Source: Candidatus Obscuribacterales bacterium (lineage in GTDB: Bacteria > Cyanobacteriota > Vampirovibrionia > Obscuribacterales > Obscuribacteraceae). From it: 64,000 bases of DNA. The DNA is taken from positions 1-64,000 of the forward strand of contig JAGVKG010000026.1 of the NCBI GenBank assembly GCA_020050685.1, read 5' to 3'. Position 1 is the first letter of the stretch. Each line of letters begins with the position of its first letter. Of the stretch, positions 1 to 21,621 are shown one piece after another. Both the position numbers and the translations under genes were made by a program. The notes under the pieces are model-generated. The model was not told where the DNA came from. It saw only the letters and a list, made by a program, of their open reading frames with translations, and ran no database searches.

Positions 1-3000
1 ACCACCGGTGGTTAACGTTAAGGCAATTGGTGAACCTGAGGTTCCAGAAACAGATTGATAACCACCCGGCCGAATATTTATGGCTGCAGTCGGTGTAACA
101 TTAAGGCTTGCCGGTACCGTGCTGGAAGCACCACTTATGCCCCAAACAAATGCAGTGCGTGGTGTACCACCATTGGCAGTAAAGGTCGCACCAAGAGTAT
201 TGATATTTGCCGGGCTTGCACCTGTAGCACCTGCGGCCGAAAGCAAAATAATATTGCCTGCCGTATCAGCAATCGCACTTGTGCTTGCTGATGTATTGAT
301 GGTTGCACCGCTGGCATTAATAGCAGTAGCACCAGTGCCACCACTGGAAATAAAGACTGAACCACCTAAGGCTTGCGTACTTCCTACTTGTGTGGCTTGA
401 GCAGATATTGTTCTGCCGGATAGATCAATGCCACCAGAGGCAACCAAAGAAACAGGACCAGCAACACCGTTTAGGGCAGTAGCATTAGTTGTGATATTTC
501 CAGACAAGGACAAATTATTCAAGGATGTTGTTGCCGCTGAATTGACCAACATAACTAATCCACCGGCAGTTGCGCCTATGGTGTCAATTGCACCAACAGA
601 CAAATTAGCGACATTTGCCGTATTGCCAGCGGTCATTGCTACCATGCCGCCCTTGGCAGTACCGCTTGTGGTTATATTGCCGGTACTAATGCTTTCTGTT
701 GCCATGACAGTTAGATCGCCACCATTAACACCCGTTGCACTAAATCCACCTAAGGTCACATGGCCATTTGCAGCATACAACATGACTTCACCACCAAAGC
801 CTGTGCCGGCACCATTACTTGATAAAGTACCTGAGATATCAATCTCGTTTGCTCTCATTTGCATATTGGCACCATTGCCATTGGCAAGCAATGCATTACC
901 AGACAAAGTATTGGCTGCAATTGAAATCAAGGAACCAGCTGTAACCATAAACTGTCCGGATGGTGTTACTGATGAACCGGCATTGGTCATGAAACCGGCT
1001 GGGGTTGTGACTCTGTCAGATTGAGCGTTCAATTGTCCGGCAACAATAATATTGGAACTATTTGTCAGATTGAAGAGAACGGCAGATGAATTACCAACCA
1101 GGGTCAGCTCGGAACTAACGTTGTTAATCAAGACATTGGCAGCCGGTGAAGCAACGGTTAAGTTCCGAGCAAAAGTGTTGATAGACATATAACCAATATT
1201 GGAGGCAATGGTCAAAGTTGGTGCAGCAATTAAATTCACACCGGTAATAGATCCAAAAGGAACAAGCAAGGTAATAGAATTAGCCGTTAAGGCACCATTT
1301 AAATCTAAGGTGCCGGCCACACTTAAATCAAGTGTCCCACCAGCATAACCAACATTCATTGTTGTCGCTTGTCCTGTACTATCAACAAAGGCATTGCCAC
1401 CAGCAAAGAAATTAAGAGTGCTGGCAGACGCTTGAATATTATTTGCCAGACTGCCAATATTGCCACCAGCAGACAAAGTCACAGACGCACCAGAAAGTAC
1501 TCCAGAGGTCTGCGACAAACTACCAGCACCGATGGCAGCCAGAAGTACTGCACCATCGGTACCGTTTTGTAGATGATTGGCTGAGACATTGCCTGACACC
1601 GTGATGCCGGTAGCACCACCTGATGCAACAATAGTGGCAAATCCATTGGCTTGATAAGCAAGTGTGCCACCAACCAGGTTATTGCCGCTAAAGCTGCTCA
1701 AGTAAACATCTCCGATTGCAACAATCGGCACAATCGTTCTGCTATCTGCCGCTAAACTTAAGGACAAGGCTACTGGTGTTCCGGCAGTACCAACTGCAGT
1801 CAATATACCAGGATGCAAGTTGACACTTGCAGTTGTTACTGAAATTGTAGTGTTGACCGTAATGCTTGACGGACCGGAGCCACTATAGAACAAGTATGCC
1901 AGCGGAGTAGTCGATTGGGAATAAGTGCTTGCGCGAGTAAAGGCAATGTTGGCATTACCAAGGGCTTGCAGACCATTAGCTCCTGCCACATTTGTGCCTA
2001 GGAAAATCTGGCCAGAAGATCCAGCAGTTGATGATCCGGAGCTGGTATCAATTGAACTCAAAGATATACCTGGAGAATCACTTGAACCGGAGGAAACATA
2101 CATATTACCGGCAATGCCAGAAGCATTTGATGTATTGATATTGGTTACAGAAATTGTATCTTGAGCGGTGAGAGAAACCGAGCCAGAATTATTTTGCTGG
2201 CTTGTGGTATTAATTGAACCATTGACACTAATTGCTCCTGTCAAGCTAATACCAATTACATGGCCAGCATTGCCTGATGTGCAGCAATTGAAACTAGCTG
2301 ATGTGTTAATGCTGCCAACAGAAATTAAGTCGTAGGCCATCATGAACACTGTCGGTGCAGCAACTGGTCCACCGGTTGTCGTCGAAGTAATGGTTCCGGC
2401 CAAGATGGTCGAGTTTTGCGAAAGAATTCTTACATCCCCGGCTGCTGCACCGCAACATGCGGAAGAGTTAAGATTGCCGACTAGGACAGAAGAAACTGCG
2501 TCGACAAGAATTTTGCCACCATTACTTGCCGATGAAGAAACAGTACTAATGTCACCAGTTACTACTGAAGCACCGGAAGCAATTTGTACCGTGCCAGCTA
2601 CATCATCACTGGTAGTTATGTTACCAGTAGACACAGCCGATGGTGTATTGAGTACAACTATGCCACCATTGGTAACGATATTACCTAATGAAAGCATCGA
2701 TCCACCGGTCATTCTCACATTACCTTGACCATTGGTGCCAGATGTGGTTACTGCACTGCCAGATATGGCTGAACCGGCATTTACATTGACATTGCCAGGC
2801 ATGGCTCCGGCTGCACTGGATAAATTATTGAAGGATAGATAGGAACCAGCTGCTAAATTTATATTGCCACCAGTTCCAGTCGAACCAGTATTTACAGAAC
2901 CAACAATTGCATAACCATTGGCGGCTGAAACTGAAACATTACCACCAAATATGCCACCACAGCAATTAGAGGTAGAGGCGGTTAGATCACCGGCTATCAC

Positions 3001-6000
3001 ATTGCCAGAGGCGGCCAAAGTAATATTCGGTACATTGCAGCAGCCAGTGGAAGTTATTGCCTGCACAATCACAGAATTAGCCGATTGCAAGAGAATTGGT
3101 TGAGCACTAGCACCATTGACCAAATTCCCGTGTATTGCCAAAGAGCGTGTGGCATTAACGTAAATATTTTGCGATGTGCTGAAGTTTACACCACCAAACA
3201 TTGCTAGCTCGAAGTTACGAACCGAGGCAGAGAACCCTACTGGTCCGGCAGCTGCACTATTGTTCAAGGCACCTGGTGACACCATCATGTAATAACCAGT
3301 GCCAGCATTCGGGGCAATGTCGCCGGTAGCTGAAATATTACCAGCCGTGACAAAAGCAATGTTATCCAAACCTGTATTTGAGTTAGACGCTTGAGTTACA
3401 GACGAAAGATATAATGAGTTGGATGAACCATCAACCGCACCAAAGTTTATTGGTACAACCAGTTGATTGTCATCACCGGTATTGATATTCAGAGCAATTG
3501 GTGAGCCACTCGTGCCAGAAACAGATTGATAACCACCTGGGCGTATGTTGATTGAAGCCGTCGCAGTCACATTCAAACTGGCTGGAACGGTTGCTGATGC
3601 GCCATTCAATCCCCAAATCAATGGCGTGCGACTTGTGCCACCGGCGGCCGTGATTGTTGCACCACCGACATTGATATTAGCGGGATTGGAACCAGTTGCA
3701 GCATCCGATGAAAGTAAAATGATGTTGCCAGCCAGATTGCCGGCACCGACAGCTTGTGCAGATGTATTGATGGTGGCGCCAGTAGCATTAATAGCATTAA
3801 CGCCAGTGCCACCAGAAGAAATAAATACTGAGCCGCCCATTGCTTGTGTGCTACCGGCCTGCGTTGCTTGAGCAGAAATTGTCCGATTAAGCATGTCAAT
3901 GCGTCCAGTAGCGACAAGTGATACTGGTCCAGCCACGCCATTTGTACCGGTAGCATCGGTAGTGATATTGCCACCAATCGTCAAATTTGGTCCAGCAATG
4001 TTGGGTGATGAATTGACAATCATTACCAGACCACCGCTATCAACGCCGGATGTATTAATGGAGTTGGTGGAAATCGTCCCTGCTGCTGCAGAGCTACCGG
4101 CTGACATAACTACATAACCACCATCTTCAGTACCGGAAGTATTGATGGCACCAACGCTAATGCTATTCGGGGCAAGAATTGTTACGTTGCCGCCGACAAC
4201 ACCTGTTGCAGTAATTGCTCCGGATGTAATTGAACCTATTAATGCACGCAAGGTAACTGATCCCGCCTCACCAATTGCGTCACTGGTATCGATGCTATTA
4301 GTGACAGTGATATCGCGAGCCGACACATACAAGCTGCCGCCAAATATGCCTTGAGCGCTGACACCAAATACAGTCACAGCACCATTGGAATTAATAAAAA
4401 CTGCACCTGCACCACCATTGGCACCAGAGCTATCAGTTGTAATAGTGCCAGAAACATTTATGTTGGTAGAAGTAGTCGATGGAGAAAGGTTAGTAATTTG
4501 CACAACGCCACCGGAAAGTTGTCCCTGCGTGTCAATTGAGCCAAGGATAAGATTGGCTTGGTTGGCTGTCGTACCGCCGGTTATGCGCACATAACCACCA
4601 GCACCGTTGCCCGTTGCTGATGTATCAATATTTGCAATATTGGCACCATTATTAGCACTAACGGTTAAATTGCCGCCTGCTGATCCATTGGCATTAATGT
4701 TCAAGGCATTTACTTGGCCGGTTGTCGACGTCAGTGAAATTGCACCGCCAACTCCATCGCCAAGACCATTACTAGATAATGTACCGTTCACATTAATAGC
4801 ATAACCAGTCAAATATACTGCAGCACCTGGTGAATCAGGAAGAGTCGCATCACCTGAAACTGTGTTGGAAGCAAGATTGATATTTCCAGTGGTAGTCAAA
4901 CGCAACAAGCCGGAAGGATTAACCGATGATCCTGGCAAGGTCGTGAAACTACCAGATGTTGTGACGAGAACTTCCAAACCGGTAAGCGACGATCCACTAT
5001 TCATGACAATATTGGAATTGCCATTAATTGTCAAAACATTAGCAAATGATGCACCAACTGGTGTCAACACCGGTGCCAAGCTATTGATTGTGATATTGCC
5101 ATGATCTGACTGAGCCGTTATGGTTGCCGCACTTGTATTGATTGTAATGTTGCCAAAAGTGCTGCCTAAGATGGCCAGCGGCGAAATTACAATACCAGCA
5201 CCAGAAATTGATCCGAGCGTCATCTGCAAACTAACACTTGTATTTCCGGCTACAGTGTTATTGACCACGATATTGCCGGAATTTGTTTCCAGAGTCACGT
5301 TGTTACCAAATATAATTCCACCGGTGCTGATATTGCTCAAGGTAATTGGTGATGTCGTTTCAAGATTGATCGTGCCACCAAAAATCGTGCCAGAATTCGT
5401 CATGTTGCCTGTATTTGTCACCTGCAACACACCAGCCAGTCCGCCATGCGCCAAAGAAATATTCAAGTTGGCGTTGTTCTCACTGATGTAGGCGCTGCCA
5501 CCAGCAAAGAAAGCAATTGGGCTGATGGCTGTATTAATCGGATTGAGCGCTGTGCCAATGTTGTTGGCAGAATACATATATAAACCATTGCCACCAATAG
5601 AACCGCTTGGCTCAAAAATACTGCCAAGGCCGAAAGCAATAAGCGAAACAGAACCAGGCGTACCTGTTGGTGCAGCTTGCGCACTAACGGTGCCGGCGAC
5701 GCTTAGTCCACCGGCACCACCAGACATGGCAATTGGCGTGTAAGCATTGTTTTGATAAGCAAGCGAACCGCCGAGAGTATTGTCGGCAATGAAGTTATTT
5801 AAGAAAACATCACCGGACGCAACTATTGGCACCATCGTCCGGCTATCTCCACCAAGACTATAAGTAAGCGATACAGGTGAACCGGAAGAGCCAACCGATG
5901 TCAGTACACCAGGATGTATATTCACACCAGAGGTCGTGACAGAGATATTTGTATCGAGAGTAATGCTTGTCGGACCGGAACCGCTAAAGAACAAATAAGC

Positions 6001-9000
6001 CTGCGGTGTTGTCTGAGTTGCATTGCTGCTGACAAGATTGAAGACAATGTTCGGTGTTCCTATACCAGACAATCCATTTGCACCGGCCACGTTCACACCT
6101 AAGAAAATCCTGCCTACAGATCCAGAAACTGCCGATCCGGAACTAGTATCAACGTTGCCTAACGAAATGGCACCAACTGCCGACGAGCCGGACGAAACAT
6201 AGATATTTCCAGCCACACCACCCTGACCAAATTGGCCCATATTAGAGGTATTAATACCGTTCACAGCAATTGTGCCGGCAGCTGTTAATGAAACAGATCC
6301 GGATGTACGTTGGGGTGTATTGAGATTGATTGAGCCATTAACTATGATGCCACCAGTCACGCTAACTAAAATTGCATTGCCACCACCCGCGGTCGAGCAA
6401 CAATTGAAAGAAGATAATGTGTGAATATCACCAGTCGTAATTGAACCATAGGCAAGAATTTGTGTATTGCCCCCGGCTCCTGCTCCACCAAATGCGCTAG
6501 CGTCAAAGTTACCGGCAAGCACGTTGCCTCCCGCCGTCAATGATAAGTTTCCGCCATTGCCACCACCGCAACAAGTTGTAGCAGTTAAATTGCCGAGAAT
6601 CATTCCAGTCCCCGACGTCAAAAGTACATTGCCGCCAAAGTTACCAGAACTTGTAGAGGATGTATTTATGTCTCCGGTAAGCAATGCGCCGGACGTAGTC
6701 AATGTCACACTGCCTGCCGCCACGGCAGATGTACTAATAGTGCCTAAAGAAATTGAATCAGCTGCATCCATGGTTACCGGGCTACCACTTGTGGTGATAT
6801 TAAGTCCGGATATTGATGAAGCAGAGGCAAACGTCATGGTGCCTTGAGTAGCACCGGAGGCATTAGTAGAATAATTACCAGACGCAATGGAGTCACCAGC
6901 GACTATGCTAAATTTGCCACCACCCTGGTTGCCAGATGTCGCTACATCTCCTACCGAGGTGAAAGTAGATGAAGCCAATGTCACGGCTCCGCCTATGCCC
7001 GCAGAAGTAGTGCTGATTTGTCCCAAAGTGATTGAAGAGGAACCTGCTTGGACAAAGACATTTCCACCAGTTACGCCTCCACAACAGTTATTGACTTGAG
7101 TGGTGATATTGCCTGCCGATACTTTTCTGGCTGCAGTCAAAGTGACATTGGCCGTTCTTGTACAGCACCCAGTGGTATTTATACTCTGAGTAATCAAATC
7201 ACCAGCTGATTGTAAAACTACATTGCCGCCGACACCTGTATCAGTGATGCTCCCATATACAGCCAAGCTGCGTGTAGCATTTACAGTAATGTTCTGAGAA
7301 TTGCTGAACCTAGTGCCACCTAAAGTTGTCCAAGCGAAGTTAGCCACCTGTGCAGCAAAACCATTTGTTGAAGCAGCAGAGGTATTGACCAGAGCCTTGG
7401 GCGTGATCACCATATAATAATCTGTGCCAATATTCGGAGCCATATTACCGGAAACCGTTAATGAGCCAGCTGAGACAAACAAGACATTATCCAAACCATT
7501 GTTATTGTTTGAACCTTGAGTAAAGTTAGTCATATACAAGGAATTGCCGGTGGCATCTGCCGCACCAATATTGATCGGCACAGCCAATTGTGTATCCGCA
7601 CCAGTATTTAAGGTAACTGCCACGGGCACACTGATTGTTCCGGTTACTGCTTGATAGCCGCCGGGACGAATGTTGATTGAAGATGTCGGTGTGACGTTTA
7701 CAGTCGTGGGAATAGTTGTGGAGGCACCACTTAGTCCCCAAATAAATGGTGTACGAGGAGTGCCACCATTGGCAGTAAACGTTGCGCCAGTCACATCAAT
7801 ATTGCTTGGGCTGGCACCAGTTGAACCAAAAGCAGAAAGTAAAATAATATTTCCGGCCAAGTCTCCCACTGCACTTGTACTGGCTGATGTATTTATAGTT
7901 GTGCCGAACGCATTAATTGCCGTTACACCAGTGCCACCACTGGAAACAAAGACAGAGCCAGCTAGAGCCTGCGTAGATCCAATTGCCGGAGCCTGAGTAG
8001 AAATTGTTATGCCAGAAATGTTTATGCCACCAGAGGCAACCAATGATACTGGACCAGCCTTACCGTCAATGCCCGTAGCGTTGGTTGTAACATTGCCACC
8101 AACCGTGAGATTCATGTTGGCACTATTGGCAGCCGAGTTCACCAACAGCACAAGTCCGCCGGTCGTCACACCAGCTGTATTAATTGAACCAGTCGCAAGT
8201 GTAGCAACGTTATTGCTATTACCAGTGGCCATCGAAACATAGCCGCCATCGGCCAAACCAGATGTGTTCACACTGCCAATATTGATACCGTCTGTAGTAA
8301 GGACTGTAAAATTGCCACCGGATGTACCAGTTGCACTTACGCTACCAACAATTACTGATCCATTAGTAGCAAACAAGGAAATTTGACCACCAGCTCCTCC
8401 GGCTGCGCCGTTTGCCGTCAATGCACCGGATACGTTGACATTACCTGCCTGAAATATCAAGCTTGCACCGTTAGGAGATGAAACAGTGCCATTGCCAGTC
8501 AGGGTACCTGATGCAACATTGGCGGACAAACCAGCATTCAAAACAAACTCTTCAGTTGGCGTTATGGAAGATCCGGGATTGGTAATAAATGACGAGGCTG
8601 TTGTAATTCTGTCAGCACCGGCAGTCAATTGTCCCGCGACAACAATATTGGAGCTGGAACTAATACTGAGAAGCTGAGCATTGGAAGTACCGACCATAGT
8701 TAGCTGGGGGCTGACGTTTGTGATGTACACGGAAGCAACGGGCGACGAGACAGTCAAGTTGCTTGTCATTGTATTGACAGATATATAGCCAAGGTTAGAA
8801 ACCATGTTCAATGTATTTGCACCAATCAAGCCGCCGCCAGCAATAGCGCCAGATGGATTGGTCAATGTCATCGAATTAGCAAACAAAGCACCAGTCAAGG
8901 TCAAATTTCCGGTAAGCAACATAGTAAGATTTCCACCGGCAGCCCCGGTAAAAATAGTTGTCTTGTTTCCAGTTTCATTGATAAAGGCGTTTTGTCCGGC

Positions 9001-12000: not shown

Positions 12001-15000
12001 ATTAGTATTGATTGTGCCTGTAACCGTCACATTTGTTGAAGTTGTGGCGGCAGCCGAGTTGGTAATTTCCACTAGACCGGCCGATAGCGTTCCTTGAGTA
12101 TCAATAGAGCCAAGACTGATGACTGCTTGATTAGCCGCCGTACCAGTAGAAAGATGTACCAAACCACCTGAGCCAGAACCGCCGGCCGTGGTATCAATAT
12201 TTCCTATGTTCATACTATTGTTAGCAGCAATGGTAACATTGCCACCGGATGAACCATTGCTGACAATATCAGTTGCCGCAACGTAGCCAGTTGTCGATGT
12301 AAGAGAAATTGCACCACCGACTCCAGAACCAAGACCATTGCTGGAAATAGAGCCATTGATGTTGATGCTATAGCCTGTGATGTACAAAGCAGCACCAGGA
12401 TTGTCTATACTTCCTGCATCACCGGTGATTGTATTGGAAGCAACATTCACATTTCCGCCAGCCGTCAATCTGACCAAGCCAGAAGCATTTACTAGTGATC
12501 CAGCCTGAGATGTAATGCTGCCATTGGTGGACATAATCACTTCCAGACCAGTGACACTAACGGCATTGGGGAAGATGATGTTAGAATTGCCGTTAATAGT
12601 AAATATGTTCGCAAACGAAGAACCAGCCAAAGTCAGGTTCGGTCCCAAACCAGTAACGGTAACATTACCATTGGTAGAAGAAGCAGAAAGATTCTGCGCA
12701 TTCAAATTAACAGCAATACTGCCAAATGTACTGGCAAAGGTAGCATTCGGTGCGACCAATACGCCTGCACCACTTATAGTACCAAGCGTTGTTTGCAGAT
12801 TCAAACTGCTCGTGCCGACAATTGCATTGTTAGCGGTAATATTTCCGGAGTTTGTTTGCAGACTAATTGCACTGCCATATATCAGACCATTGTTAGCAAT
12901 ATTAGCTAACGCTACTCCCGATGTTGTTTGCAGGCTCACAGTGCCACCAAAAACTGAATTGCTTGTGATGTTGCCACTATTAGTAATTTGGAGCGTGCCA
13001 CCAAGTCCGGCATGAGCGAGACTGACATTTAAGTCCGAAGCACCTTCAGCAATATAAGCGCTACCGGAAGCAAAAAATGCAAGAGAGGAAATTGTTGTAG
13101 TTATGGGATTAACTCCGCTTGCTATATCACCACCGGCATACATATAAAGACTCGCGCCAGATGATATAGAACCACTTGGCTCAGAAATTCCGCCTGTACC
13201 TAAGGCAACCAAATTAATGGCACCGGCTGTACCACCGGAAGCCGCTTGAGCAGTTACGGCACCAGAAACTCTGATACCAGTTGTTCCTCCGGAAACTGCA
13301 ACTGGCATGTAAGCGTTATTTTGGAAGGCAAACGATCCACCGGATGTATTATTGGCATTGAAGTTGTTTAAGAAAATATCGTCAGATGCAACAATCGGCA
13401 CAATCGTCCGGCTATCCCCACCAAGGCTATAAGTCAATGAAACCGGTGAGCCGATAGTGCCAACTGAAGTAAGAACACCAGGATGAATATTTACACCAGA
13501 CGTAGTAACAGAAACATTTGTATCTGTGGTGATACTGGTTGGACCAGAGCCATCATAGAAAAGGTAGGCATCTGGTGTCGGGTGAGCGGAATTGCCGGAA
13601 ACAAGCGTGAAGACAATATTGGCATTGCCAGTCGGTGACAAACCATTGGTTCCCGAAACATTGGCACCTAAAAATATTTGGCCTTGAGTGCCGGCGGCCA
13701 ATCCAGAACTTGTATCAATCTTACCTAGAGAAATTGCGCCGGCGGCCGAAGAACCAGACGAGACATAAATATTTCCGCCAATGCCACCGACACTGAATTG
13801 ACCAACATTGGCAGTGTTGATTCCATTTGCCGAAATTGTGCCGAGAGCTGTCAAACTAACAGAACCGGAACTACGCTGAGCCGTATTCAAATCGATAGAG
13901 CCGTTGACGGCAATTGCGCCACCAACGCTAACCAAAACAACATTGCCACCATTGGCAGTGGAACAACAATTGAAGCTGGAAAGAGTGTGCAAGTCTCCAG
14001 TGGTAATCGAACCGGCAGCAATAATTTGCGTATTGCCTCCGCGTCCATCTCCCCCGAAAGCACTGGCATCAATATTGCCGGCATAAACTGTCGACCCGGA
14101 TGTCAATGTTGTATTGCCACCATTTCCTCCGCCGCAGCAAGTTGTTACCGTGATATTGCCCGTTCGAATCGAGGAACCAGCGGAAATTGAGACATTGCCA
14201 CCAAAATTGCCACCACTTGCCGACGATGTATTCATTGCACCAGTCAAAACAGAACCACCGGAGGCTAATGTTATGGCTGCTCCGGCTGTTGCATTTGTGC
14301 TAATTGCAGCCAACGACATGGAACCTGCCGAATCTGCAGTTACAGCTGCACCGCTGGTCGTGATGTTATAAGCAGAGATTGTTGAGCCGGAAGCAAAGGA
14401 CATTGCACCTTTAACCGTACCTTGAAGGTTGCTTGTGTAATTTCCCGCTGCAATTGCCGCACCAGCTGCGACACTAAACTTTCCACCACCTTGGTTGCCA
14501 CTGGTGGTTACATCTCCAATTGATACAGAGGTTGCTGCAGTCACGGTCACAGATCCGCCAGTGCCAGCGGAAGTGCTGACAATTTGTCCCATAGCCACAT
14601 GTGCAGAATCAGACGATGCAAAAATATTTCCACCTGACACACCACCACAACAGTTATTAGTGATTGCCGTCAAGTCACGCACAGATACACCACGGACCGC
14701 TGTCAGAGTAATGTTATTAGTTCTCGTGCAGCATCCTGTCGTTAATATATTTTGAGCAATTAAGTCACCACCGGATTGCAAGACAACGTTTCCACCCACG
14801 CCGGTATCAGTGATATTTCCATAAATGGACAAACTTCTGGCAGCATTGACGTAAATATTTTGAGAGTTGGTAAAGGTGATACCACCAAAGGCAGCCCAAG
14901 AAAAATTGTTCACTTGCGCAACATAGCCTGTCGTAGTAGCAGCACTTGTATTGCTCACAGCCAAAGGCGTAGCGATTAAATAGTAGTTGGTACCAACATT

Positions 15001-18000
15001 TGGTGCAATGCTACCACTTACAGTAATCGAACCTGCAGCCAACAATAAGATATTATCCAGGCCATTATTGTTGTTGGAACCTTGCATGAAAGAAGATATG
15101 TAAAATGAGTTGGCCGTACTATCGACTGCACCAACATTGATTGGCACGGCCAATTGACTATCCCCACCTGTATTTAAAGCAATCGAGCTTGGAACCGAAA
15201 CTGTTCCGGTAACTGCTTGATAGCCACCAGGCCTAATATTGATCGAAGATGTCGGCGTCACATTCAAACTAGTTGGTATTGTCGAGGATGCACCATTAAT
15301 TCCCCAGACAAAGGCTGTTCTCGGTGTACCACCGGCGAGAGTAAATGTGGAACCACTTGTATTGATATTGGTTGGACTTGCACCAGTACTGGTAAAAGAC
15401 GAAAGTAAAACGATGTTGCCGGCTAGATTGCCTGCGCCAGGTGTAGCGGCCGAAGTATTGATAGTTGAATTAGCAGCATTAATGGCTGTAGCACCAGTAC
15501 CACCAGACGAGATAAATACCGATCCACCTAAAGCCGAGGTGCTACCGCCGGCTGTCGCTTGAGCAGATATTGTCCGGTTAGAAATATCGATGCCACCGCT
15601 TGCCACCAAAGATACCGGACCAGCTGTGCCATTGGCACTTGAGGCATCAGTGGTAATATTGCCAGCCAAAGTCAAATTAGTCAGTGCGCTGTTGGCAGAA
15701 GAATTGACTAATGCCACCATGCCGCCTGATGTTACACCTGAGGTATTGATTGAACCGACGGACATTGTTGCTCTGTTCAAAGAGTTACCGCCAGACATAA
15801 GCACATAACCACCGGTGCCACTGCCAAACGTATTAACATTTCCTGTATTAATACTTTCGCTGGCTATAAGAATCAAGTTGCCACCTTGCACACCATTGGC
15901 TGAGAATGCGCCAGCATTTATTGAGCCATTTGAAGCCAACAAAGTTACTTGCCCACCAGAACCAGTACCTGCACCATTGCTGGCTAATGTTCCGGCAATA
16001 GCTATACTCTTGCCCGCAATTGTCAAACTTGCGCCATTGCCATTAGGCAACCCTGTCGTACCGGTTAGTGTACCGCTGGCAAGATTGACGTTGGTGCCGG
16101 CTGTAAGTGAAAACTGAGTCGAAGGTGAGACCAAAGATCCAGGATCAGTAGTAAACGATCCACGAGTACTAATGTTTGTTGAGGCGGCCAACATTTGTCC
16201 AGCGACAACCATATTAGACGAATTGTTGACTGTCATTGCCAGTGCCTCAGATGTTCCGGACATAGTTAGTTGTGGGCTAACATTGCTTACATAGGTATTT
16301 GCGCCAGGCGAGGCAACAGTCAAGCTAAGTGTAGAAGTATTGGCGTAAATGTAACCAAGGTTTGAGCTCAGCGATACGCTCGAGCCGGCAATAAAATTAT
16401 TTCCAGCAATGGCCCCAGCCGTGCTTTGCAAATTAACAGCATTAGCCGAAACCATACCATTGACTGTCATGTTACCTAAAGCTGCTACCTGCAGAGTACT
16501 GCCGGCAAATTCCGAGTTGAGAGTCAAACCAGTGCCAGTTGAGTTGACATAGTTGTTGCCGGCCGCATAAGTGCTAAGCGAGCTTGCTGTGGTTTGAATT
16601 GAATTGCCTATACTACCAACATTGCCACCAGTCGAATTTAAAACAAGCGAAGCGCCAGAAACGCTGCCTGCGCTTTGAGCAATGCTGCCACCATTAAAGG
16701 CAGCCATTGCCACCATACCATCGCTGCCATCTTGTATATGACTTGACGAGACATTGCCAGACAAAGTAATACCGGCAGCACCACCGCTAACCACAATTGC
16801 CGGCATGCCATTGTTTTGATAATTACGAGAGCCACCGACAGTATTGTTCGCATTGTAACCGCTGAGATAGACATCGCCAGCAGAGACAATCGGTACGATT
16901 ACACGACTGTCACCGCCCGTATTTAAGGTAAGCGCTACCGGTGTACCAACCGTACCGACAGAGGTTAAGACTCCAGGAAAAATGGTAACCGAGGAGGTCG
17001 TAACAGAAATTGTCGAATCAGTGGTTATACTGGCTGGTCCGGAGGCATTGTAGAAAAGATAAGCTTGCGGCGTTGGTGACTGTGAAAATGCACTCACCCT
17101 CGTGAAAGCAATATCAGCATTGCCAGCCGACTGCAATCCGTTAGTACCGGCAACATTTGCACCAAGGAAAATCTGCCCGGCAGATCCTGCTGTCGTTGAG
17201 CCTGAGCTTACATCAATCGTTCCGAGCTGAATTGCTAAAGGTCCATTTGATCCGGATGAGGCAAAGATACTGCCAGCAATTCCTTGCTGGCTGGATAAAT
17301 TCATGTTGGCTACATCGATAGTGGTAGCAGCAGTTAGGGAAACAGAGCCGGCATTATTCTGAGGTGAGGCAACATTGATCGTGCCGATTACGTTTACGGC
17401 AGCAGAACGGCTAACAATAATCACATTGCCTGCTGATCCTGTATTGCAACAATTGAAGCTCGTGGAAGTATTGATATCGTTGGTTGTGACTGTACCTTCG
17501 GCAAGCAATAAAACCGATCCGCCCTGAGCCGGACCTCCTTGAGTGGTGGCACTAATGCTTTCAACCGTCAGGTTAGATCCGGAAGTCACAGTGATTGCAC
17601 CAGCACCGCCGCCACCGGCGCTGCTATTGGAAGTTAAACTACCAGCGAACACAGCACCAGCAGCACTAAGTGTGACATTGCCACCACTAAAACCCGCTGT
17701 AGATGTAGCATTTACGTTGAGAGTAATCAGTGATGCACCAGAAGTTAGCTGAACCATACCACCAGCACCACTGGAAGATTGATAGTTGCTATTTATACTA
17801 CCTGTATTCATGGCCGCTTGCGAAGTTAAGAAAACATCTCCACCATTGGCAGCCATATTTAAAACGGAAAGCGAGGTTCCCGCAGCCATGCGAATATCAC
17901 CAATGTATTGCAAAGAAATATTGCCACCGTGAATTGACATGGTGGAATTCACATTTACGTTGCCGGCACCCTGTCCGGCCACGCTACTTATATCACCGAA

Positions 18001-21000
18001 GGCGAGAAAAGTACCAGATGCGAGATTGATATCGCCACCGGTGCCAGCCGAGCCGGTAACAACATTATTGGTCACAACATATCCCGTTGGTGAGGAAATA
18101 TAAACATCACCAGCAAATACTCCACCACAACAATTGCTGCGCGTGGTAGTTATGTTTCCCACGCTCACGGAAGTATTGCCAACGATCGTTACATCGTTGG
18201 TGCCATTACAACAACCAGTAGTATCAATGGCTTGAGCAATCACACCGTTTGCCGATTGCAATGTGACATTGGCACCCGTACCTGTATTAGTCAAATTACC
18301 AAATATGGATAAACTGCCGGAAGCATTGACATAAATGTTTTGTTCGTTACTAAACGTGATACCACTAAAAGTTGCCAATTCAAAATGCTTAACTGTGGCA
18401 GAAAATCCCAGTGGTCCAGGAACAGCATTATTGGTGAACTGCCTTGGCGAAACTAGCATATAGTAATTTGTACCGGCATTTGGTGCCACGTCACCGGAAG
18501 CGACTATATTTCCCGCTGTCAGTAAGGCAATATTGTCCAAGCCGGAATTGCTATTCGATCCTTGGGTGAGTGTGGAGATAAAGAAGGAATTATTTGAGCC
18601 GTCCAAAGCACCAATATTGATTGGCACAACAAGTTGCGTATCACCAGCGGTATTGAGATTGAGAGCGATAGGAGAACCGGATGAGCCTGATACAGATTGA
18701 TAACCACCGGGACGAATATTGATCGAGGCTGTCGGTGTAACGTTTAAGTTCGCCGGCACTGTTGCTGAGGCTCCAGACAAACCATATTTGAACAATGTAC
18801 CGGCTGTGCCGCCAGTTTGCGTAAACGTTGCACCAGTAACATCGATATTGGCTGGGTTAATCCCAGAACTACCAGCGGCTGAAAGCATGATCAGATTACC
18901 AGCAAGGTTACCCGCGCCCGGTGTAGCTGCAGATGTATTCACGGTAGTATTGGCTGCGTTAATTGCTGTTGCGCCGGTGCCACCACTGGAAATAAAGACT
19001 GAGCCACCTAGTGCGCTTGCACTACCACCAGCGGTCGCCTGAGCGGAAACGGTGCGGTTAGAAATATCAATGGCACCACTGGCGACTAAAGATACTGGTC
19101 CAGCAATGCCATTCACTCCTGTAGCATCAGTTGTAATATTGCCACCAACGGTCAGATTAGTCGAAGCAGTATTAGCCGACGAATTGACCAACATGACTAA
19201 ACCACCTGATGCAGATCCAGATGTATTGATAGAACCTGCAGTCAATGTACCAGGTGATGTAGCGGTCCCAGTGTGAGCAAGAACATAGCCACCATTTGCA
19301 GTGCCAGACATATTGATATTACCGAGTGAAATTCCACTCGAGGAAAGCACTGTCAGATTGCCACCATTCAAACCATTAGCTGTGATAGTGTCAGCAGTGA
19401 CCGAGCCACTGGTAGCCAGCATAGTTATCACGCCACCAACACCAAGTGGACCGTTGCCATTACTGGAAATTGGTCCTGCTATATTTATCGACGAGGCAGA
19501 CATATAAATTGACGCACCATGCGCAGTTGTTATAGGCGCATTGCCAAAAATGGAAAAACTTGCCGATGGCATAGAAAGCGCGCCCGTGGAAATCAAACTA
19601 ATTGGTCCTTGCGAAACCAAGTTACCACCGATTGTAGTAGTACTGCCGGAATTCACAGTCATCTGCACATTGGCCGTGAGATTTCCACCAATAGAAACAG
19701 ATCCTGCCTTCAATGTGCCAGGAATAAAGGAATTGCCAGAGCTAATTTTGCCATTGGCATTGAAGGTAATGCTTAGCCCGTTTGATGTGGTGGCTTGCGT
19801 CGTCTGAATATTGATTTTGCCACCAGTAATTGCGCCTGTGGAAATCGAAGTACCGCTCGCTTGCCCAGCTAAAATCATCACATTGCCTGCGCCACCATTG
19901 CCAGAACCTGATGTGTTGATGGAACTCGATCCCGGCAAATTGACAGTGCCGACAGTGCCGGCACCATTGGCAAATGCAACGAGAGTGACATTGCCACCAT
20001 TGGCATCGCTGGCGGTGGAATTCGTATTGATTTGCAGTCCGGGACTGGCCGAAAAATCTATATTGCCACCATTGGCTCCAGAGGGAGAAATGGTTACCGG
20101 ATTGGTGGTTTGCGATCCGGGCACGGTCGAAGTTGATGTACCAATTGCCGAGGTGATATTAGCACCAGCAACTATGTGAATATCATGCCCAATGCCCAAT
20201 CCATCTTGCGTGGTTATGGAAGAAACACTTGCAGTGCTTGTTATATTGCCACTGGCCAATATTGCTAATTCCTCACCGACACTGACGTTACCCACAATGC
20301 TGATATTGCCGAGATTGTAGAAAGTCGGATCGCCTGATATTTCAATTTCGCCAATTTGTAAATTATCGGTACTGGCTAAAAGATGTTGCGTACCAGCTTT
20401 CGTATTGATCACGCCAGAGACATCATCAACATTCATATCGACAGCGCCGCTGCCGGAATAAAGATTCAGTTGATGCGAAAGCAAATCGCCTCCACTGATA
20501 GCAATATTGCCCACTCCACAATAACTTGCATCACGCAGGTTAATCGAACCATTAAGTGCAGAAAGCGTGCCGCCGAGATTGCTGAGCATGAGATTGCTAA
20601 TCTCGCCACTGGATAAATTGATATTGCCTTGCAAAGCACTCATCAATCCGGAATTGACAATCGAACCGCTTGCTGAAGACAAATTGAGATTACCGGCGGC
20701 TTGCATGACTGGCAATGCGCCGACAAGACCAGTCGGCAAAGCATTAACGATTGCCCCTCCGGCCATTGCCGTCAAATTGCCTGAACTTGTAATTGTGCCT
20801 GCATTAACAAGAGTTCCTAAGGCAGCAAGCGTAAGATCAAAGTTGGCGACGGAACTGACAAGTTCACCAGGTACTGCTACCGTTGTGATAATCCCGGTTG
20901 ACTGATTGTAAATGTTAGCAGCACTAATAGTCGCACTCGTCACTTGGGGATTGGTCGAGAACGCCATCAGTTTGCCAGCATTGGTCAGATCACCAGTAAA

Positions 21001-21489
21001 ATTCATTGTCGCTGATGAGCCAAAATCTTGATACAAGCGCACATGGTGCGGCACTACCAAATTCCCCACCGAAGCGGCAAGCCCTGGTGCTAAAGAAAAT
21101 GAGCCGAATGTCGCACTGCCTTGTGCCGAGATTCTCAAAGATTGTGTTCCACCAGCCGCCACTTGCGAGGCAGCAACCAGCTCAGCCGGAGTCAATAAAT
21201 CCGCTCCGCCTACGACCCGACTAACGCCGCCAACCATAATTGAAACCGTGCCTTGGGGGATAATTGATGAGGTCGGAATTGCTCTCACTGTCGAGGTTAA
21301 ATCCAAATTCAGCTGGCCGGCTGGCATCGACATGCCGCCTTGGGCGGCAGATGCAGCAGCAGCAGCGGCGGCAGCATCACGGGCGGCGCGATTTTCGCGA
21401 AAGTCCGCAAATGCAGGCTGGGCAAAGAAACAGGCCGGCAATAGCATTTGCACGGCCATGCAAAATGCAATGGCGCTGACGTTTCTCAT
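1..21489 (-). CDS. Giant secreted beta-strand-repeat protein, adhesin-like (3' end outside window)
   Basis: The minus frame is open from the ATG at 21489 to base 1, exactly 7,163 codons, so the protein exceeds 0.6 MDa and continues outside the window. The start gives a signal peptide (MRNVSAIAFCMAVQMLLPA... ending AFA), then an Ala-run and a segment with few repeats. An in-frame TAG just upstream excludes an earlier start. The rest is Gly/Ser/Thr/Asn/Ala-rich, with short alternating strands such as GGNVTL, SGNI and GGLVMLVNS, as expected of stacked beta-helix or beta-prism rungs. GGYQ recurs at residues 928, 2088, 3459, 4610, 5985 and 7142, and YLFY about midway between. Copies differ by many synonymous changes, so the duplications are old. 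I see no clear haemagglutination-type TPS domain, LPXTG or SLH domain. An adhesin, sheath or matrix role is inferred from size and composition; the anchor and secretion route are unknown. Confidence 0.9.
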   Translation of the reverse strand, partial: MRNVSAIAFCMAVQMLLPACFFAQPAFADFRENRAARDAAAAAAAASAAQGGMSMPAGQLNLDLTSTVRAIPTSSIIPQGTVSIMVGGVSRVVGGADLLTPAELVAASQVAAGGTQSLRISAQGSATFGSFSLAPGLAASVGNLVVPHHVRLYQDFGSSATMNFTGDLTNAGKLMAFSTNPQVTSATISAANIYNQSTGIITTVAVPGELVSSVANFDLTLAALGTLVNAGTITSSGNLTAMAGGAIVNALPTGLVGALPVMQAAGNLNLSSASGSIVNSGLMSALQGNINLSSGEISNLMLSNLGGTLSALNGSINLRDASYCGVGNIAISGGDLLSHQLNLYSGSGAVDMNVDDVSGVINTKAGTQHLLASTDNLQIGEIEISGDPTFYNLGNISIVGNVSVGEELAILASGNITSTASVSSITTQDGLGIGHDIHIVAGANITSAIGTSTSTVPGSQTTNPVTISPSGANGGNIDFSASPGLQINTNSTASDANGGNVTLVAFANGAGTVGTVNLPGSSSINTSGSGNGGAGNVMILAGQASGTSISTGAITGGKINIQTTQATTSNGLSITFNANGKISSGNSFIPGTLKAGSVSIGGNLTANVQMTVNSGSTTTIGGNLVSQGPISLISTGALSMPSASFSIFGNAPITTAHGASIYMSASSINIAGPISSNGNGPLGVGGVITMLATSGSVTADTITANGLNGGNLTVLSSSGISLGNINMSGTANGGYVLAHTGTATSPGTLTAGSINTSGSASGGLVMLVNSSANTASTNLTVGGNITTDATGVNGIAGPVSLVASGAIDISNRTVSAQATAGGSASALGGSVFISSGGTGATAINAANTTVNTSAATPGAGNLAGNLIMLSAAGSSGINPANIDVTGATFTQTGGTAGTLFKYGLSGASATVPANLNVTPTASINIRPGGYQSVSGSSGSPIALNLNTAGDTQLVVPINIGALDGSNNSFFISTLTQGSNSNSGLDNIALLTAGNIVASGDVAPNAGTNYYMLVSPRQFTNNAVPGPLGFSATVKHFELATFSGITFSNEQNIYVNASGSLSIFGNLTNTGTGANVTLQSANGVIAQAIDTTGCCNGTNDVTIVGNTSVSVGNITTTRSNCCGGVFAGDVYISSPTGYVVTNNVVTGSAGTGGDINLASGTFLAFGDISSVAGQGAGNVNVNSTMSIHGGNISLQYIGDIRMAAGTSLSVLNMAANGGDVFLTSQAAMNTGSINSNYQSSSGAGGMVQLTSGASLITLNVNATSTAGFSGGNVTLSAAGAVFAGSLTSNSSAGGGGAGAITVTSGSNLTVESISATTQGGPAQGGSVLLLAEGTVTTNDINTSTSFNCCNTGSAGNVIIVSRSAAVNVIGTINVASPQNNAGSVSLTAATTIDVANMNLSSQQGIAGSIFASSGSNGPLAIQLGTIDVSSGSTTAGSAGQIFLGANVAGTNGLQSAGNADIAFTRVSAFSQSPTPQAYLFYNASGPASITTDSTISVTTSSVTIFPGVLTSVGTVGTPVALTLNTGGDSRVIVPIVSAGDVYLSGYNANNTVGGSRNYQNNGMPAIVVSGGAAGITLSGNVSSSHIQDGSDGMVAMAAFNGGSIAQSAGSVSGASLVLNSTGGNVGSIGNSIQTTASSLSTYAAGNNYVNSTGTGLTLNSEFAGSTLQVAALGNMTVNGMVSANAVNLQSTAGAIAGNNFIAGSSVSLSSNLGYIYANTSTLSLTVASPGANTYVSNVSPQLTMSGTSEALAMTVNNSSNMVVAGQMLAASTNISTRGSFTTDPGSLVSPSTQFSLTAGTNVNLASGTLTGTTGLPNGNGASLTIAGKSIAIAGTLASNGAGTGSGGQVTLLASNGSINAGAFSANGVQGGNLILIASESINTGNVNTFGSGTGGYVLMSGGNSLNRATMSVGSINTSGVTSGGMVALVNSSANSALTNLTLAGNITTDASSANGTAGPVSLVASGGIDISNRTISAQATAGGSTSALGGSVFISSGGTGATAINAANSTINTSAATPGAGNLAGNIVLLSSFTSTGASPTNINTSGSTFTLAGGTPRTAFVWGINGASSTIPTSLNVTPTSSINIRPGGYQAVTGTVSVPSSIALNTGGDSQLAVPINVGAVDSTANSFYISSFMQGSNNNNGLDNILLLAAGSITVSGSIAPNVGTNYYLIATPLAVSNTSAATTTGYVAQVNNFSWAAFGGITFTNSQNIYVNAARSLSIYGNITDTGVGGNVVLQSGGDLIAQNILTTGCCTRTNNITLTAVRGVSVRDLTAITNNCCGGVSGGNIFASSDSAHVAMGQIVSTSAGTGGSVTVTAATSVSIGDVTTSGNQGGGKFSVAAGAAIAAGNYTSNLQGTVKGAMSFASGSTISAYNITTSGAAVTADSAGSMSLAAISTNATAGAAITLASGGSVLTGAMNTSSASGGNFGGNVSISAGSSIRTGNITVTTCCGGGNGGNTTLTSGSTVYAGNIDASAFGGDGRGGNTQIIAAGSITTGDLHTLSSFNCCSTANGGNVVLVSVGGAIAVNGSIDLNTAQRSSGSVSLTALGTISANGINTANVGQFSVGGIGGNIYVSSGSSAAGAISLGKIDTSSGLAAGTQGQIFLGANVSGTNGLSPTGNANIVFTLVSGNSAHPTPDAYLFYDGSGPTSITTDTNVSVTTSGVNIHPGVLTSVGTIGSPVSLTYSLGGDSRTIVPIVASDDIFLNNFNANNTSGGSFAFQNNAYMPVAVSGGTTGIRVSGAVTAQAASGGTAGAINLVALGTGGISEPSGSISSGASLYMYAGGDIASGVNPITTTISSLAFFASGSAYIAEGASDLNVSLAHAGLGGTLQITNSGNITSNSVFGGTVSLQTTSGVALANIANNGLIYGSAISLQTNSGNITANNAIVGTSSLNLQTTLGTISGAGVLVAPNATFASTFGSIAVNLNAQNLSASSTNGNVTVTGLGPNLTLAGSSFANIFTINGNSNIIFPNAVSVTGLEVIMSTNGSITSQAGSLVNASGLVRLTAGGNVNVASNTITGDAGSIDNPGAALYITGYSININGSISSNGLGSGVGGAISLTSTTGYVAATDIVSNGSSGGNVTIAANNSMNIGNIDTTAGGSGSGGLVHLSTGTAANQAVISLGSIDTQGTLSAGLVEITNSAAATTSTNVTVTGTINTNSVGLASPAGTVSIISAGGVSAFAISSQGTYSGNVYLSGSSVSADSINTDGVQQAGSVILRATNGAVNVTNGINASALVGGNLSILSTTGITLGAIDLSGTTSGGYLVGTTGSATNTATITTSSIGTQGGSSGGLVMLVNTSPATASTNLTVGGNITTDATGLNGKAGPVSLVSTGAINISGITISTQATNVGSTQALGGSVFVSSGGTGVTAISATGATINTSSVNSAAGDRAGNIIMLSATGSSVVNPTNIVGGTFVQTGGTAGSSIRYGLNGASSTVPTSLNVTPTTSINIRPGGYQAVSGSAGVPLNITLNTGGDTQLMAPINIGAVDGSGRSLFIGRLTQGSNNNSGLDNIAFVTAGHINASDDIAPNAGTDYYMLLSPGQLNNSASPGAVGFSATVQHFNVSMFGGTTFTNEQNIYVNTSGSLTLLGAVNNSGTGATVNLQSANGIITQDITTQGCCNSTNAITLAANGTITTGNLTSTFNCCNAVTGNNISLLAINGYVVAGILTATSSVNAGNVNIGAGSYVAFNGINTLATQHGSAGVSSGATIYGGNTTTGNIRMSAMGPIALQNVSTSGGGVVVLDTPSAISTGNISTNGTVGGSVYFTSGASVLTGDINTSSTQSNNGGNIVIEAPSSVLVGNLNSSSCCDAAAGNITLLSQASSLVVGTINSNTNGTSTTRPTALLVAHDLISTNAINTSATFNCCTSGNAGNVIAISMAGSISINGAINTTSQQNTSGSVSLVADGTISAASIDTSNNSGIAGNIFVSTGSGGAPAMSLGSVDTSSASTTAGSNGLVFLGADLAGTNGLSSVGNANIVFTLTSSHSQSPTPQAYLFYSGSGPASITADTTVTMTTTGVNLHPGVLSSVGTAGVPVALNFNLSGDSRTIVPIVASGDVYLSSINGANTVGGSLAYQNNGFTTMVLSGGATGLTLSGNASANHIQNGSDGALVLGALSTGSLLQTGGVISGASAYLTAGSNLGTGVNNIVTDTNVLNFYAGQNAFINETGNKTTIFTGAAGGNLTMLLTGNLTLTGALFANSMTLTNPSGAIAGGGLIGANTLNMVSNLGYISVNTMTSNLTVSSPVASVYITNVSPQLTMVGTSNAQLLSISSSSNIVVAGQLTAGADRITTASSFITNPGSSITPTEEFVLNAGLSANVASGTLTGNGTVSSPNGASLIFQAGNVNVSGALTANGAAGGAGGQISLFATNGSVIVGSVSATGTSGGNFTVLTTDGINIGSVNTSGLADGGYVSMATGNSNNVATLATGSINTAGVTTGGLVLLVNSAANSANMNLTVGGNVTTNATGIDGKAGPVSLVASGGINISGITISTQAPAIGSTQALAGSVFVSSGGTGVTAINAFGTTINTSASTSAVGDLAGNIILLSAFGSTGASPSNIDVTGATFTANGGTPRTPFIWGLSGASTTIPTTVNVTPTSSINIRPGGYQAVTGTISVPVAVTLNTGADTQLAVPINIGAADATGNSLYMTNFTQGSNNNNGLDNVLFVSAGSLTVSGNMAPNIGTDYYMVITPKALVNTSAASTNGFAAQVANFAWTTLGGTRFSNSQNITVNATRSLAVYGSITDTGVGGNVVLQSAGDLITQSINTTGCCTRTANVTLTAARKVSAGNITTQVNNCCGGVTGGNVFVQAGSSSITLGQISTTSAGIGGAVTLASSTFTSVGDVATSGNQGGGKFSIVAGDSIASGNYSTNASGATQGTMTFASASSISGLNITTSGSPVTMDAADSISLGTISTSAVAAGSVTLTTSGALLTGDINTSSTSSGNFGGNVLLTSGTGMILGNLTATTCCGGGNGGNLSLTAGGNVLAGNFDASAFGGAGAGGNTQILAYGSITTGDIHTLSSFNCCSTAGGGNAILVSVTGGIIVNGSINLNTPQRTSGSVSLTAAGTIAVNGINTSNMGQFGQGGVAGNIYVSSGSSAVGAISLGNVDTSSGSAVSGSVGRIFLGVNVAGANGLSGIGTPNIVFNLVSSNATQTTPQAYLFFSGSGPTSITLDTNISVTTSGVNIHPGVLTSVGSSGSPVSLTYSLGGDSRTMVPIVASGDVFLNNFIADNTLGGSLAYQNNAYTPIAMSGGAGGLSVAGTVSAQAAPTGTPGSVSLIAFGLGSIFEPSGSIGGNGLYMYSANNIGTALNPINTAISPIAFFAGGSAYISENNANLNISLAHGGLAGVLQVTNTGNMTNSGTIFGGTINLETTSPITLSNISTGGIIFGNNVTLETNSGNIVVNNTVAGNTSVSLQMTLGSISGAGIVISPLAILGSTFGNITINTSAATITAQSDHGNITINSLAPVLTPVGASFANVLTINGNSNIVMNSGSSLTGLEVLVTTSGSFTTLPGSSVNPSGLLRLTTTGNINLASNTVSGDATLPDSPGAAVYLTGYAINVNGTLSSNGLGDGVGGAISLTSTTGQVNALNINANGSAGGNLTVSANNGANIANIDTSATGNGAGGYVRITGGTTANQANLILGSIDTQGQLSGGVVQITNLSPSTTSTNINVSGTITTDSSGANGGAGAVFINSNGAVTVFGVSAQGIFGGSLYVSARDITVTNSIDTSDAIGEAGSVTLRALIGSITSGAITATGVVGGNVTILAPNSISVGAINTSGTEDGGYVVMSAGSSAAAGTISTNSINTSGVDSGGLVMIVNSSPNIAGPNLTIGGNITTDATGTNGVAGPVSLVATGRIDMLNRTISAQATQAGSTQAMGGSVFISSGGTGVNAINATGATINTSAQAVGAGNLAGNIILLSSDAATGSNPANINVGGATITAAGGTSRTPLIWGLNGASATVPASLNVTATASINIRPGGYQSVSGTSGSPIALNINTGDDNQLVVPINFGAVDGSSNSLYLSSVTQASNSNTGLDNIAFVTAGNISATGDIAPNAGTGYYMMVSPGALNNSAAAGPVGFSASVRNFELAMFGGVNFSTSQNIYVNATRSLAIHGNLVNGASAQPILLQSANSVIVQAITSTGCCNVPNITLAASGNVIAGDLTASTSNCCGGIFGGNVSVSAANGYAIVGSVNTGSTGTGGNINLAAGSYLSFNNLSSAAGAMPGNVNVNAGSAISGSAVTTSGTNGQGNVRMTGGSMLSLGNIVTNGGIVVLNTPSAVSTGNITTSDDVAGTVQIASGASVVTGDISTVSSSASNGGKILVDAVSSVLVGNLNSSACCGAAAGDVRILSQNSTILAGTITSTTTGGPVAAPTVFMMAYDLISVGSINTSASFNCCTSGNAGHVIGISLTGAISVNGSINTTSQQNNSGSVSLTAQDTISVTNINTSNASGIAGNMYVSSGSSDSPGISLSSIDTSSGSSTAGSSGQIFLGTNVAGANGLQALGNANIAFTRASTYSQSTTPLAYLFYSGSGPSSITVNTTISVTTASVNLHPGILTAVGTAGTPVALSLSLAADSRTIVPIVAIGDVYLSSFSGNNLVGGTLAYQANGFATIVASGGATGITVSGNVSANHLQNGTDGAVLLAAIGAGSLSQTSGVLSGASVTLSAGGNIGSLANNIQASASTLNFFAGGNAFVDSTGQATTMNVGYAGGTLDLSVAGTLDLNGALTANSITLLVPFGSITGVNLIAAPTLTIASNIGYMSINTFARNLTVASPAANVLINNVSSELTLVGNSSAVLFNLTNSSNIIVAGQLNAQSDRVTTPAGFMTNAGSSVTPSGQFMVTAGSLISIAANTLSGNALLANGNGANMQMRANEIDISGTLSSNGAGTGFGGEVMLYAANGHVTLGGFSATGVNGGDLTVMATESISTGNITTSGTAKGGMVAMTAGNTANVANLSVGAIDTIGATAGGLVMLVNSAATTSLNNLSLSGNITTNATALNGVAGPVSLVASGGIDLSGRTISAQATQVGSTQALGGSVFISSGGTGATAINASGATINTSASTSAIADTAGNIILLSAAGATGASPANINTLGATFTANGGTPRTAFVWGISGASSTVPASLNVTPTAAINIRPGGYQSVSGTSGSPIALTLTTGG
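67..3537 (-). repeat. Repeat module 5 (short form, 1,157 codons)
   Basis: This short-form module has YLFY at 1885 and a second half of 1,830 nt. Four vicinal Cys pairs lie at 3037, 2959, 2452 and 2281. A sixth module begins with the GGYQ at 55-66 and runs off the window. Confidence 0.85.
3538..7662 (-). repeat. Repeat module 4 (long form, 1,375 codons)
   Basis: This long-form module has YLFY at 5986 and a second half of 2,460 nt, matching module 2. The added block is near 4,130-4,600. Four vicinal Cys pairs lie at 7162, 7081, 6568 and 6397. Confidence 0.85.
7663..11115 (-). repeat. Repeat module 3 (short form, 1,151 codons)
   Basis: This short-form module has YLFY at 9481 and a second half of 1,830 nt, within one codon of module 1. 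Four vicinal Cys pairs lie at 10615, 10537, 10048 and 9877. Confidence 0.85.
11116..15228 (-). repeat. Repeat module 2 (long form, 1,371 codons)
   Basis: It has the same marker order as module 1, but the half from YLFY (13555) to the next GGYQ is 2,451 nt instead of about 1,830 nt. Most of the extra length appears to be an added block near 11,690-12,170, which repeats the S-I-x-T-x-G ... GLV ... TNVTV unit. Four vicinal Cys pairs lie at 14728, 14647, 14134 and 13963. Confidence 0.85.
15229..18708 (-). repeat. Repeat module 1 (short form, 1,160 codons)
   Basis: This runs from the first GGYQ marker to the next, within the giant gene. Marker order is GGYQ, DNIALL, YYML, NEQNIYVN, paired cysteines, YLFY (17050), PGVLTSVG, SPQLTM, GGSVFISSGGTGATAINA, then the next SINIRPGGYQ. 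It carries three vicinal Cys pairs (plus-strand positions 18208, 18127 and 17446). The third pair of the other modules is replaced here by a Gly-rich stretch. Confidence 0.85.
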
Positions 21490-21621
21490 CGTTTGCTTGC
21501 CTACCAATCCCCACGGCTCATACTCTTTAGATGCCCAAGCAGTGCGGCTTGCAAACCCCTAAACAATGAGATTTAATATTAAACAAAATATCTACTTTCT
21601 CTATGAATTTAGATAGAGTAA
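21490..21621 (-). promoter_or_regulatory. AT-rich leader of the giant gene, probable promoter
   Basis: This 132-bp gap between the acyl-CoA synthetase stop and the giant gene's start is much more AT-rich than either gene. On the minus strand it contains TTGTTTAATATTAAA, a plausible but weak -10 region, and an inverted repeat with 6-bp arms (CTCTAT/ATAGAG, 21598-21617). No strong Shine-Dalgarno sequence precedes the ATG. No U-tract terminator is evident for the upstream gene, so partial read-through is possible. Confidence 0.3.

Follow-up and report, generated by a model that had tools for sequence, protein, structure and literature searches.

A giant Obscuribacterales gene for a probable surface protein built from nested repeat modules

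The giant gene and its modules

The window analysed here is the whole 64-kb stretch of DNA that makes up positions 1-64000 of contig C16 in a 70-contig metagenome-assembled genome (MAG) of Candidatus Obscuribacterales within the Vampirovibrionia/Melainabacteria (G000; 4.20 Mb, 98.7% complete, 3% estimated contamination), and it holds a minus-strand frame that is open from a TTG at 21507 down to position 1 (Table 1). The initial annotation had described this frame as open for 7,163 codons and leaving the window, a description that is exact when the frame is read from the ATG at 21489; it leaves because the assembly contig itself ends there. Positions 1-99 of the window match exactly, and in the correct orientation, the final 99 bases of C70 (C70:57295-57393), another contig, and no further exact copy of this sequence was found elsewhere in the assembly. 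C70 extends the frame by 4,973 codons to a stop at C70:42472-42474, giving a joined gene of about 12,103 codons from the ATG, or 12,109 from the upstream TTG, with no internal stop. From this one overlap in a MAG, and because both the frame and the module run across it unbroken, we infer that the two contigs join and that the window carries the N-terminal 60% of a single gene, whose secreted product would have about 12,100 residues. The upstream gene on the same strand (21622-23193) is acyl-CoA synthetase-like (AMP-binding) by reading, and no secretion gene was recognised beside the giant gene on either contig.

Comparing the translated frame with itself recovered the periodicity: matches were strongest at lags of 2522-2532 aa (z 20-24), with a further peak at 1160 aa (z 13-16), and no lag in a shuffled-sequence control exceeded z 3.4. 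Moreover, the six positions at which the GGYQ marker had been reported to start (18697, 15217, 11104, 7651, 3526 and 55) are all exact, as are the reported spacings of 3480, 4113, 3453, 4125 and 3471 nt, equal to 1160, 1371, 1151, 1375 and 1157 aa. Two anchors, INIRPGGYQ and VNIHPGVLTSVG, recur in every module and lie 566-591 aa apart outside the long modules, so that the ~1,160-aa module can be divided into an R half and an H half of ~580 aa each; identity between the two halves is no more than 22-28% along their length, so the case for a common origin of R and H depends chiefly on the anchor motif they share. The second anchor interval widens to 788-791 aa in the two long modules (M2 and M4), and this long form is due to two partial duplications of ~50 and ~155 aa inside H2 and H4 (H-profile positions 178-228 and 346-501). 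In module 4 these duplications are arranged as in module 2, with H-profile matches at 4357-5286 and 3577-4341. Beyond module 5, the gene continues on C70 with module 6 (M6) and then half-module R7 together with a portion of H7; a repeat region of another kind comes next, and a Thr-rich linker leads to a globular C-terminus. The strict short/long alternation claimed at the outset thus stands for M1-M5 in the window and fails beyond it, because the next module, M6, although of the M2/M4 class, measures 1,170 aa against ~1,371.

Table 1. Features of the giant gene in the window.
Feature	Position	Strand	Basis or remark
Giant gene, 5' part	1..21489	-	ATG at 21489; continues on C70
Putative Sec-type signal peptide (MRNVSAIAFCMAVQMLLPACFFAQPAFA / DFRE)	21406..21489	-	By reading; cleavage after AFA
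Conserved N-domain defining the family	20416..21330	-	29-paralogue alignment
H0, partial module tail before module 1, homologous to H positions 269-583	18748..19698	-	H profile
Module 1, short, alpha class (R1 17014-18747, H1 15268-17013)	15268..18747	-	Anchors, trees
Module 2, long, beta class (R2 13519-15267, H2 11155-13518)	11155..15267	-	Anchors, H profile, trees
Extra length of module 2 (H profile 178-501 at 11878-12855, 346-584 again at 11155-11865)	11155..12855	-	H profile
Module 3, short, alpha class (R3 9445-11154, H3 7702-9444)	7702..11154	-	Anchors, trees
Module 4, long, beta class (R4 5950-7701, H4 3577-5949)	3577..7701	-	Anchors, trees
Module 5, short, alpha class (R5 1849-3576, H5 106-1848)	106..3576	-	Anchors, trees, modelled structure
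Module 6, first codons, beta class (1,170 aa in full)	1..105	-	Remainder on C70
C16/C70 overlap	1..99		Exact 99-bp identity with C70:57295-57393

Modelling of module 5 with AlphaFold2, using 11 homologous modules, gave an all-beta structure of repeated short strands (mean pLDDT 81.6), and the module is accordingly modelled as a continuous all-beta solenoid. The solenoid assignment depends on AlphaFold2 and its alignment of 11 rows, because a Foldseek search of the model against the PDB gave no significant match (best the EtpA adhesin, E 0.3, and the two-partner-secretion (TPS) domain of HMW1, E 0.7). Pfam, NCBIfam and PDB sequence searches with the module gave no match, and no ligand-binding or enzymatic domain was recognised in the giant protein. 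Between protein residues ~60 and 9,300, 54 of 55 Cys are paired in 27 Cys-Cys doublets, which occupy four constant sites within the R half (contexts GCC, NCCGG, CCG and FNCC), against a chance expectation of 0.2 doublets for the window part, and the H halves have no such doublets. The model places the doublets at or close to inter-coil loops, and two of the doublets are separated by 26 aa, about one coil.

Duplication history of the array

The whole-module tree separates M1, M3 and M5, as (M1,(M3,M5)) (98/97), from M2, M4 and M6, as ((M2,M4),M6) (100/99), a division into alpha and beta classes that had been predicted from the spacings. The R-half, H-half and whole-module trees agree, with R7 falling outside in the R tree and the placement of H6 less supported. 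The initial annotation had proposed that a single module duplicated first and a two-module unit later; this order of events holds, and the block can be refined to M2-M3 copied to M4-M5. Specifically, AU tests rejected M1 and M3 as sisters (p 0.0064) as well as M4 and M6 (p 0.00012). Sisterhood of M1 and M5 was not rejected (p 0.12), which leaves the alpha side of the history less certain. Two other blocks were discarded: M1-M2 to M3-M4, which needs M1 and M3 to be sisters (p 0.006), and M3-M4 to M5-M6, which needs M4 and M6 to be sisters (p 0.0001). Duplication of M2-M3 to M4-M5 is favoured by the module sequences because it is the sole block duplication that gives matching alpha and beta topologies. 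M6 is beta by its R half, and its H half is diverged, not clearly beta and without the insert; the length alternation is therefore a property of M1-M5.

Module pairs share 47-62% of their protein and 53-63% of their nucleotide positions, and at fourfold sites they are identical at 30-39%, close to the 28% expected by chance. Since these sites are near saturation while the proteins keep 47-62% identity, the copies are old and under purifying selection, and the early statement that they have diverged at synonymous positions and are no artefact of identical repeats is strengthened. The array has grown by nested duplication, from the half-module to the single module (alpha and beta) and then to the M2-M3 block, with small partial duplications within H producing the long form. 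In-frame recombination between modules may set the length of the rod, and would be a natural way to alter it, with purifying selection keeping each coil foldable.

Homogenisation of the modules by gene conversion, in place of a clean block duplication, could account for the uneven module identity (some stretches ~65% in every comparison, others 30-75%) and for the mixed character of M6, beta-like in R and not clearly so in H; it is nevertheless unlikely, as the congruent alpha and beta topologies fit one duplication of M2-M3 and the fourfold sites carry no recent homogenisation. A second array is found in a relative assembled in 10 contigs (G021), where a single frame of 25,007 codons (C2:174646-249666) inside a 685-kb contig contains the R half of the same module five times, spaced 1,142-1,173 aa apart, with no alternation and with a matching C-terminus. 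The G021 modules (~1,150 aa) and those of the window are reciprocally monophyletic, so the two arrays grew, or were homogenised, separately; because the G021 modules form a clade of their own, the length alternation is not common to both. An assembly or binning artefact, in which short-read assembly of the MAG had collapsed repeats or joined them into chimaeras, would agree with a contig end inside the gene and with a 70-contig assembly of 3% estimated contamination, but is scarcely credible given copies that differ at most fourfold sites, 12,109 codons without a stop, the still greater length of the frame that carries these modules in the ten-contig relative and a 99-bp overlap with no other exact copy in the assembly. 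Overall, the gene illustrates how a bacterium builds very long proteins by duplications nested at several scales, selection having preserved the older copies and the same module having been expanded separately in a related genus.

A giant-paralogue family of Obscuribacterales

The idea of a single odd gene was not borne out, as the frame belongs to a set of about 35 giant paralogues in its own genome. A tblastn search of that genome with the N-terminal 2,169 aa returned 54 stretches in ~34 frames, and the family of ~35 frames amounts to ~139,467 codons, or ~10.0% of the 4.20-Mb assembly, its largest frames having 14,495, 14,113 (truncated at the end of its contig), 10,226, 8,837 and 8,610 codons. 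Members are defined by an N-domain of ~310 aa, for which 29 paralogues were aligned over 310 positions with 42% mean column identity; the window gene matches its profile at E 7e-117 and has a putative Sec leader by reading, and the paralogues carry equivalent A-x-A leaders, likewise by reading. In neither Pfam nor NCBIfam does the N-domain have its own family; it scores weakly with Fil_haemagg in 7 of 29 members and with the FHA-type beta-helical repeat TIGR01731 in 6 of 29.

The N-domain is present in 35 genomes of the same taxonomic family, which counts ~50 in all, 15 of them without it, and in 3 of 3 genomes of the sister family, and the rest of the class gave three weak matches (E 2e-8 to 4e-4; 289 genomes searched in all). 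Phylum-wide (386 genomes), matches at E<=1e-5 were obtained only in the own genome and in one of the weak-match genomes. Judged from these searches, in which the sampled relatives were mostly draft assemblies and the gene itself comes from one MAG, the N-domain is confined to the order Obscuribacterales, with weak matches only elsewhere. The nearest named record is a Candidatus Obscuribacterales MAG, and no published description of this giant-protein family was found in the part of the literature covered.

Two C-terminal types occur in the family, a FecR-like domain with an HGPYS end, to which the window gene belongs, and a VDTGD tag. About 20 other members end in a short tag, (I/V)VDTG(D/E) with an acidic tail, placed 11-27 residues ahead of the stop; tag-bearing members lie on C4, C16:163451-173287, C21, C27, C32, C34, C44, C49, C52, C53 and C70:4771-10131. 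A few frames outside the N-domain set also end in the tag (near C43:37840, C52:141520, C64:30011 and C4:163678), which looks like a C-terminal sorting signal. Several members deserve separate mention. The gene at G000:C52:21300-26738 is split by one in-frame stop at 24246-24248 and may be a pseudogene, a case of recoding or a sequence error. A frame running into a contig end at G000:C13:136797-139118 carries a long (DPPGPP)n repeat on its C-terminal side. At G000:C25:39182-69911, two adjacent paralogues of 6,195 and 3,939 codons have nearly identical C-terminal domains, which suggests a recent local duplication or conversion.

Export, anchoring and likeness to known systems

The C-terminal 470 aa of the giant protein were modelled with two confident all-beta regions, and Foldseek against the PDB matched them to anti-sigma proteins of the FecR family (prob 1.00, E 6e-5 to 4e-4). 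The FecR Pfam profile PF04773 gave no match at E<=0.5 in 11 members, and the similarity to FecR, as judged from the model, is at fold level only. Scores of GGA_N-GAT (PF18308) and Hom_end_hint on the C-terminus were set aside as sub-threshold helix or compositional matches. The 12-strand membrane barrel that ends an autotransporter (type V) was not found at the C-terminus; a soluble FecR-like domain and helices stand there instead.

Taken together, the gene probably encodes a secreted surface protein of about 12,100 residues, a solenoid array grown by nested duplication and one of ~35 Obscuribacterales paralogues, acting as an adhesin or coat fibre. The Sec signal peptide would direct the polypeptide through the inner membrane, the N-domain would cap the solenoid and may guide export, and the FecR-like domain with the conserved 'KLIKMAACLAQTTxxHGPYS' end would hold the protein at the envelope, from which the rod would project. 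With ~25 aa per coil and a rise of 0.48 nm, the rod would be ~0.25 micrometre long. A location at the cell surface is indicated because the protein combines a Sec leader with a solenoid far longer than the width of the periplasm, and a role as surface adhesin or fibre would be in keeping with it. The family, which fills about a tenth of the genome in an uncultured, non-photosynthetic sister group of cyanobacteria and has no Pfam or NCBIfam model, would then be a likely main determinant of how Obscuribacterales cells meet surfaces and other cells.

A structural envelope component (S-layer-like), or a carbon/nitrogen store, might be read instead from the very low charge of the window part (K+R 1.2%, D+E 2.8%), its richness in G, S, T, A and N, the absence of an enzymatic motif and the massive paralogy. 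Such a role is improbable beside that of an adhesin, for ~35 divergent paralogues suggest diversified recognition over a single coat, and storage is hard to reconcile with Cys pairs at fixed positions and with coils under constraint.

The route of export bears on a further reading, in which the surface protein is a strict TPS exoprotein or filamentous-haemagglutinin (FHA) homologue, with an N-terminal TPS domain and export through a dedicated TpsB (ShlB/FhaC) barrel. The Sec leader, the modelled beta-solenoid body, the weak Fil_haemagg/TIGR01731 matches and the identity of the two best, non-significant, Foldseek matches would all accord with it, but it is very unlikely. The TPS domain (PF05860) was found neither in the window gene, whose N-domain has no Pfam match at all, nor in the 29 paralogues; neither PF05860 (at E<=1) nor ShlB (PF03865) was found genome-wide, a search whose controls were silent, so that these two results weigh little; and the C-terminus is FecR-like. 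An Omp85 frame is present in 37 of the 40 genomes of the relatives search (own genome included), nearly all relatives of the same family and order having exactly one, and this supports a diderm cell and leaves no obvious second barrel as TPS partner, the single Omp85 being most simply BamA. None was found in the own genome, most likely owing to an assembly gap, and the idea of a monoderm cell raised by that miss was dropped in view of the 37 genomes. Diderm envelope genes have been reported in Melainabacteria by Soo et al. (PMC4040986). It is possible, and offered here only tentatively, that the N-terminal cap/export domain and the two alternative C-terminal sorting signals form a lineage-specific Obscuribacterales system, by which solenoids of up to 25,000 residues would cross the diderm envelope by a route other than TPS, autotransport or a described tag-based system.

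Among known systems, the C-terminal fold resembles the periplasmic anti-sigma domain of FecR/PupR (PDB 4m0h and 6ovk; TM normalised to target 0.43-0.45) at 14% identity, a domain that belongs to a membrane-anchored sensor there and ends a giant solenoid here. Huge proteins described from Omnitrophota, Planctomycetota and further lineages (PMC11573180 and its references) are similar as very long single frames in uncultured bacteria and differ in lineage and domains; no mention of Obscuribacter or Melainabacteria was found in the text of that survey. Giant1-5 of Apilactobacillus kunkeei are extracellular proteins of 3,000-8,000 aa that take up 6% of the genome, the bodies of Giant1-3 being mainly alpha-helical repeats, Giant4 having beta-sheet domains and the C-termini being DUF5776 (PMC12863079). 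They share with the present family a signal peptide, a repeated body, a common C-terminal domain, a beta-solenoid part and a notable share of the genome, but are encoded by five consecutive genes of a Gram-positive bacterium, where the present family has ~35 genes that lie scattered and occupy ~10% of the genome; the resemblance is one of kind, with no sequence relation seen. Similar in plan are FHA, HMW1 and EtpA, which likewise have a Sec leader and a conserved N-terminal region followed by a very long beta-solenoid (modelled here), with FHA-type repeats scoring weakly in the Obscuribacterales N-domain family. The present protein differs from them in its kilobase-scale super-repeats, its FecR-like C-terminus, the lack of a TPS domain match or of a ShlB partner (in searches with silent controls) and the non-significant PDB fold matches of its module. 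With the defining features of TPS and autotransporter proteins, as tested, absent or unsupported, the giant protein would by analogy resemble the long beta-solenoid adhesins in the way it works.
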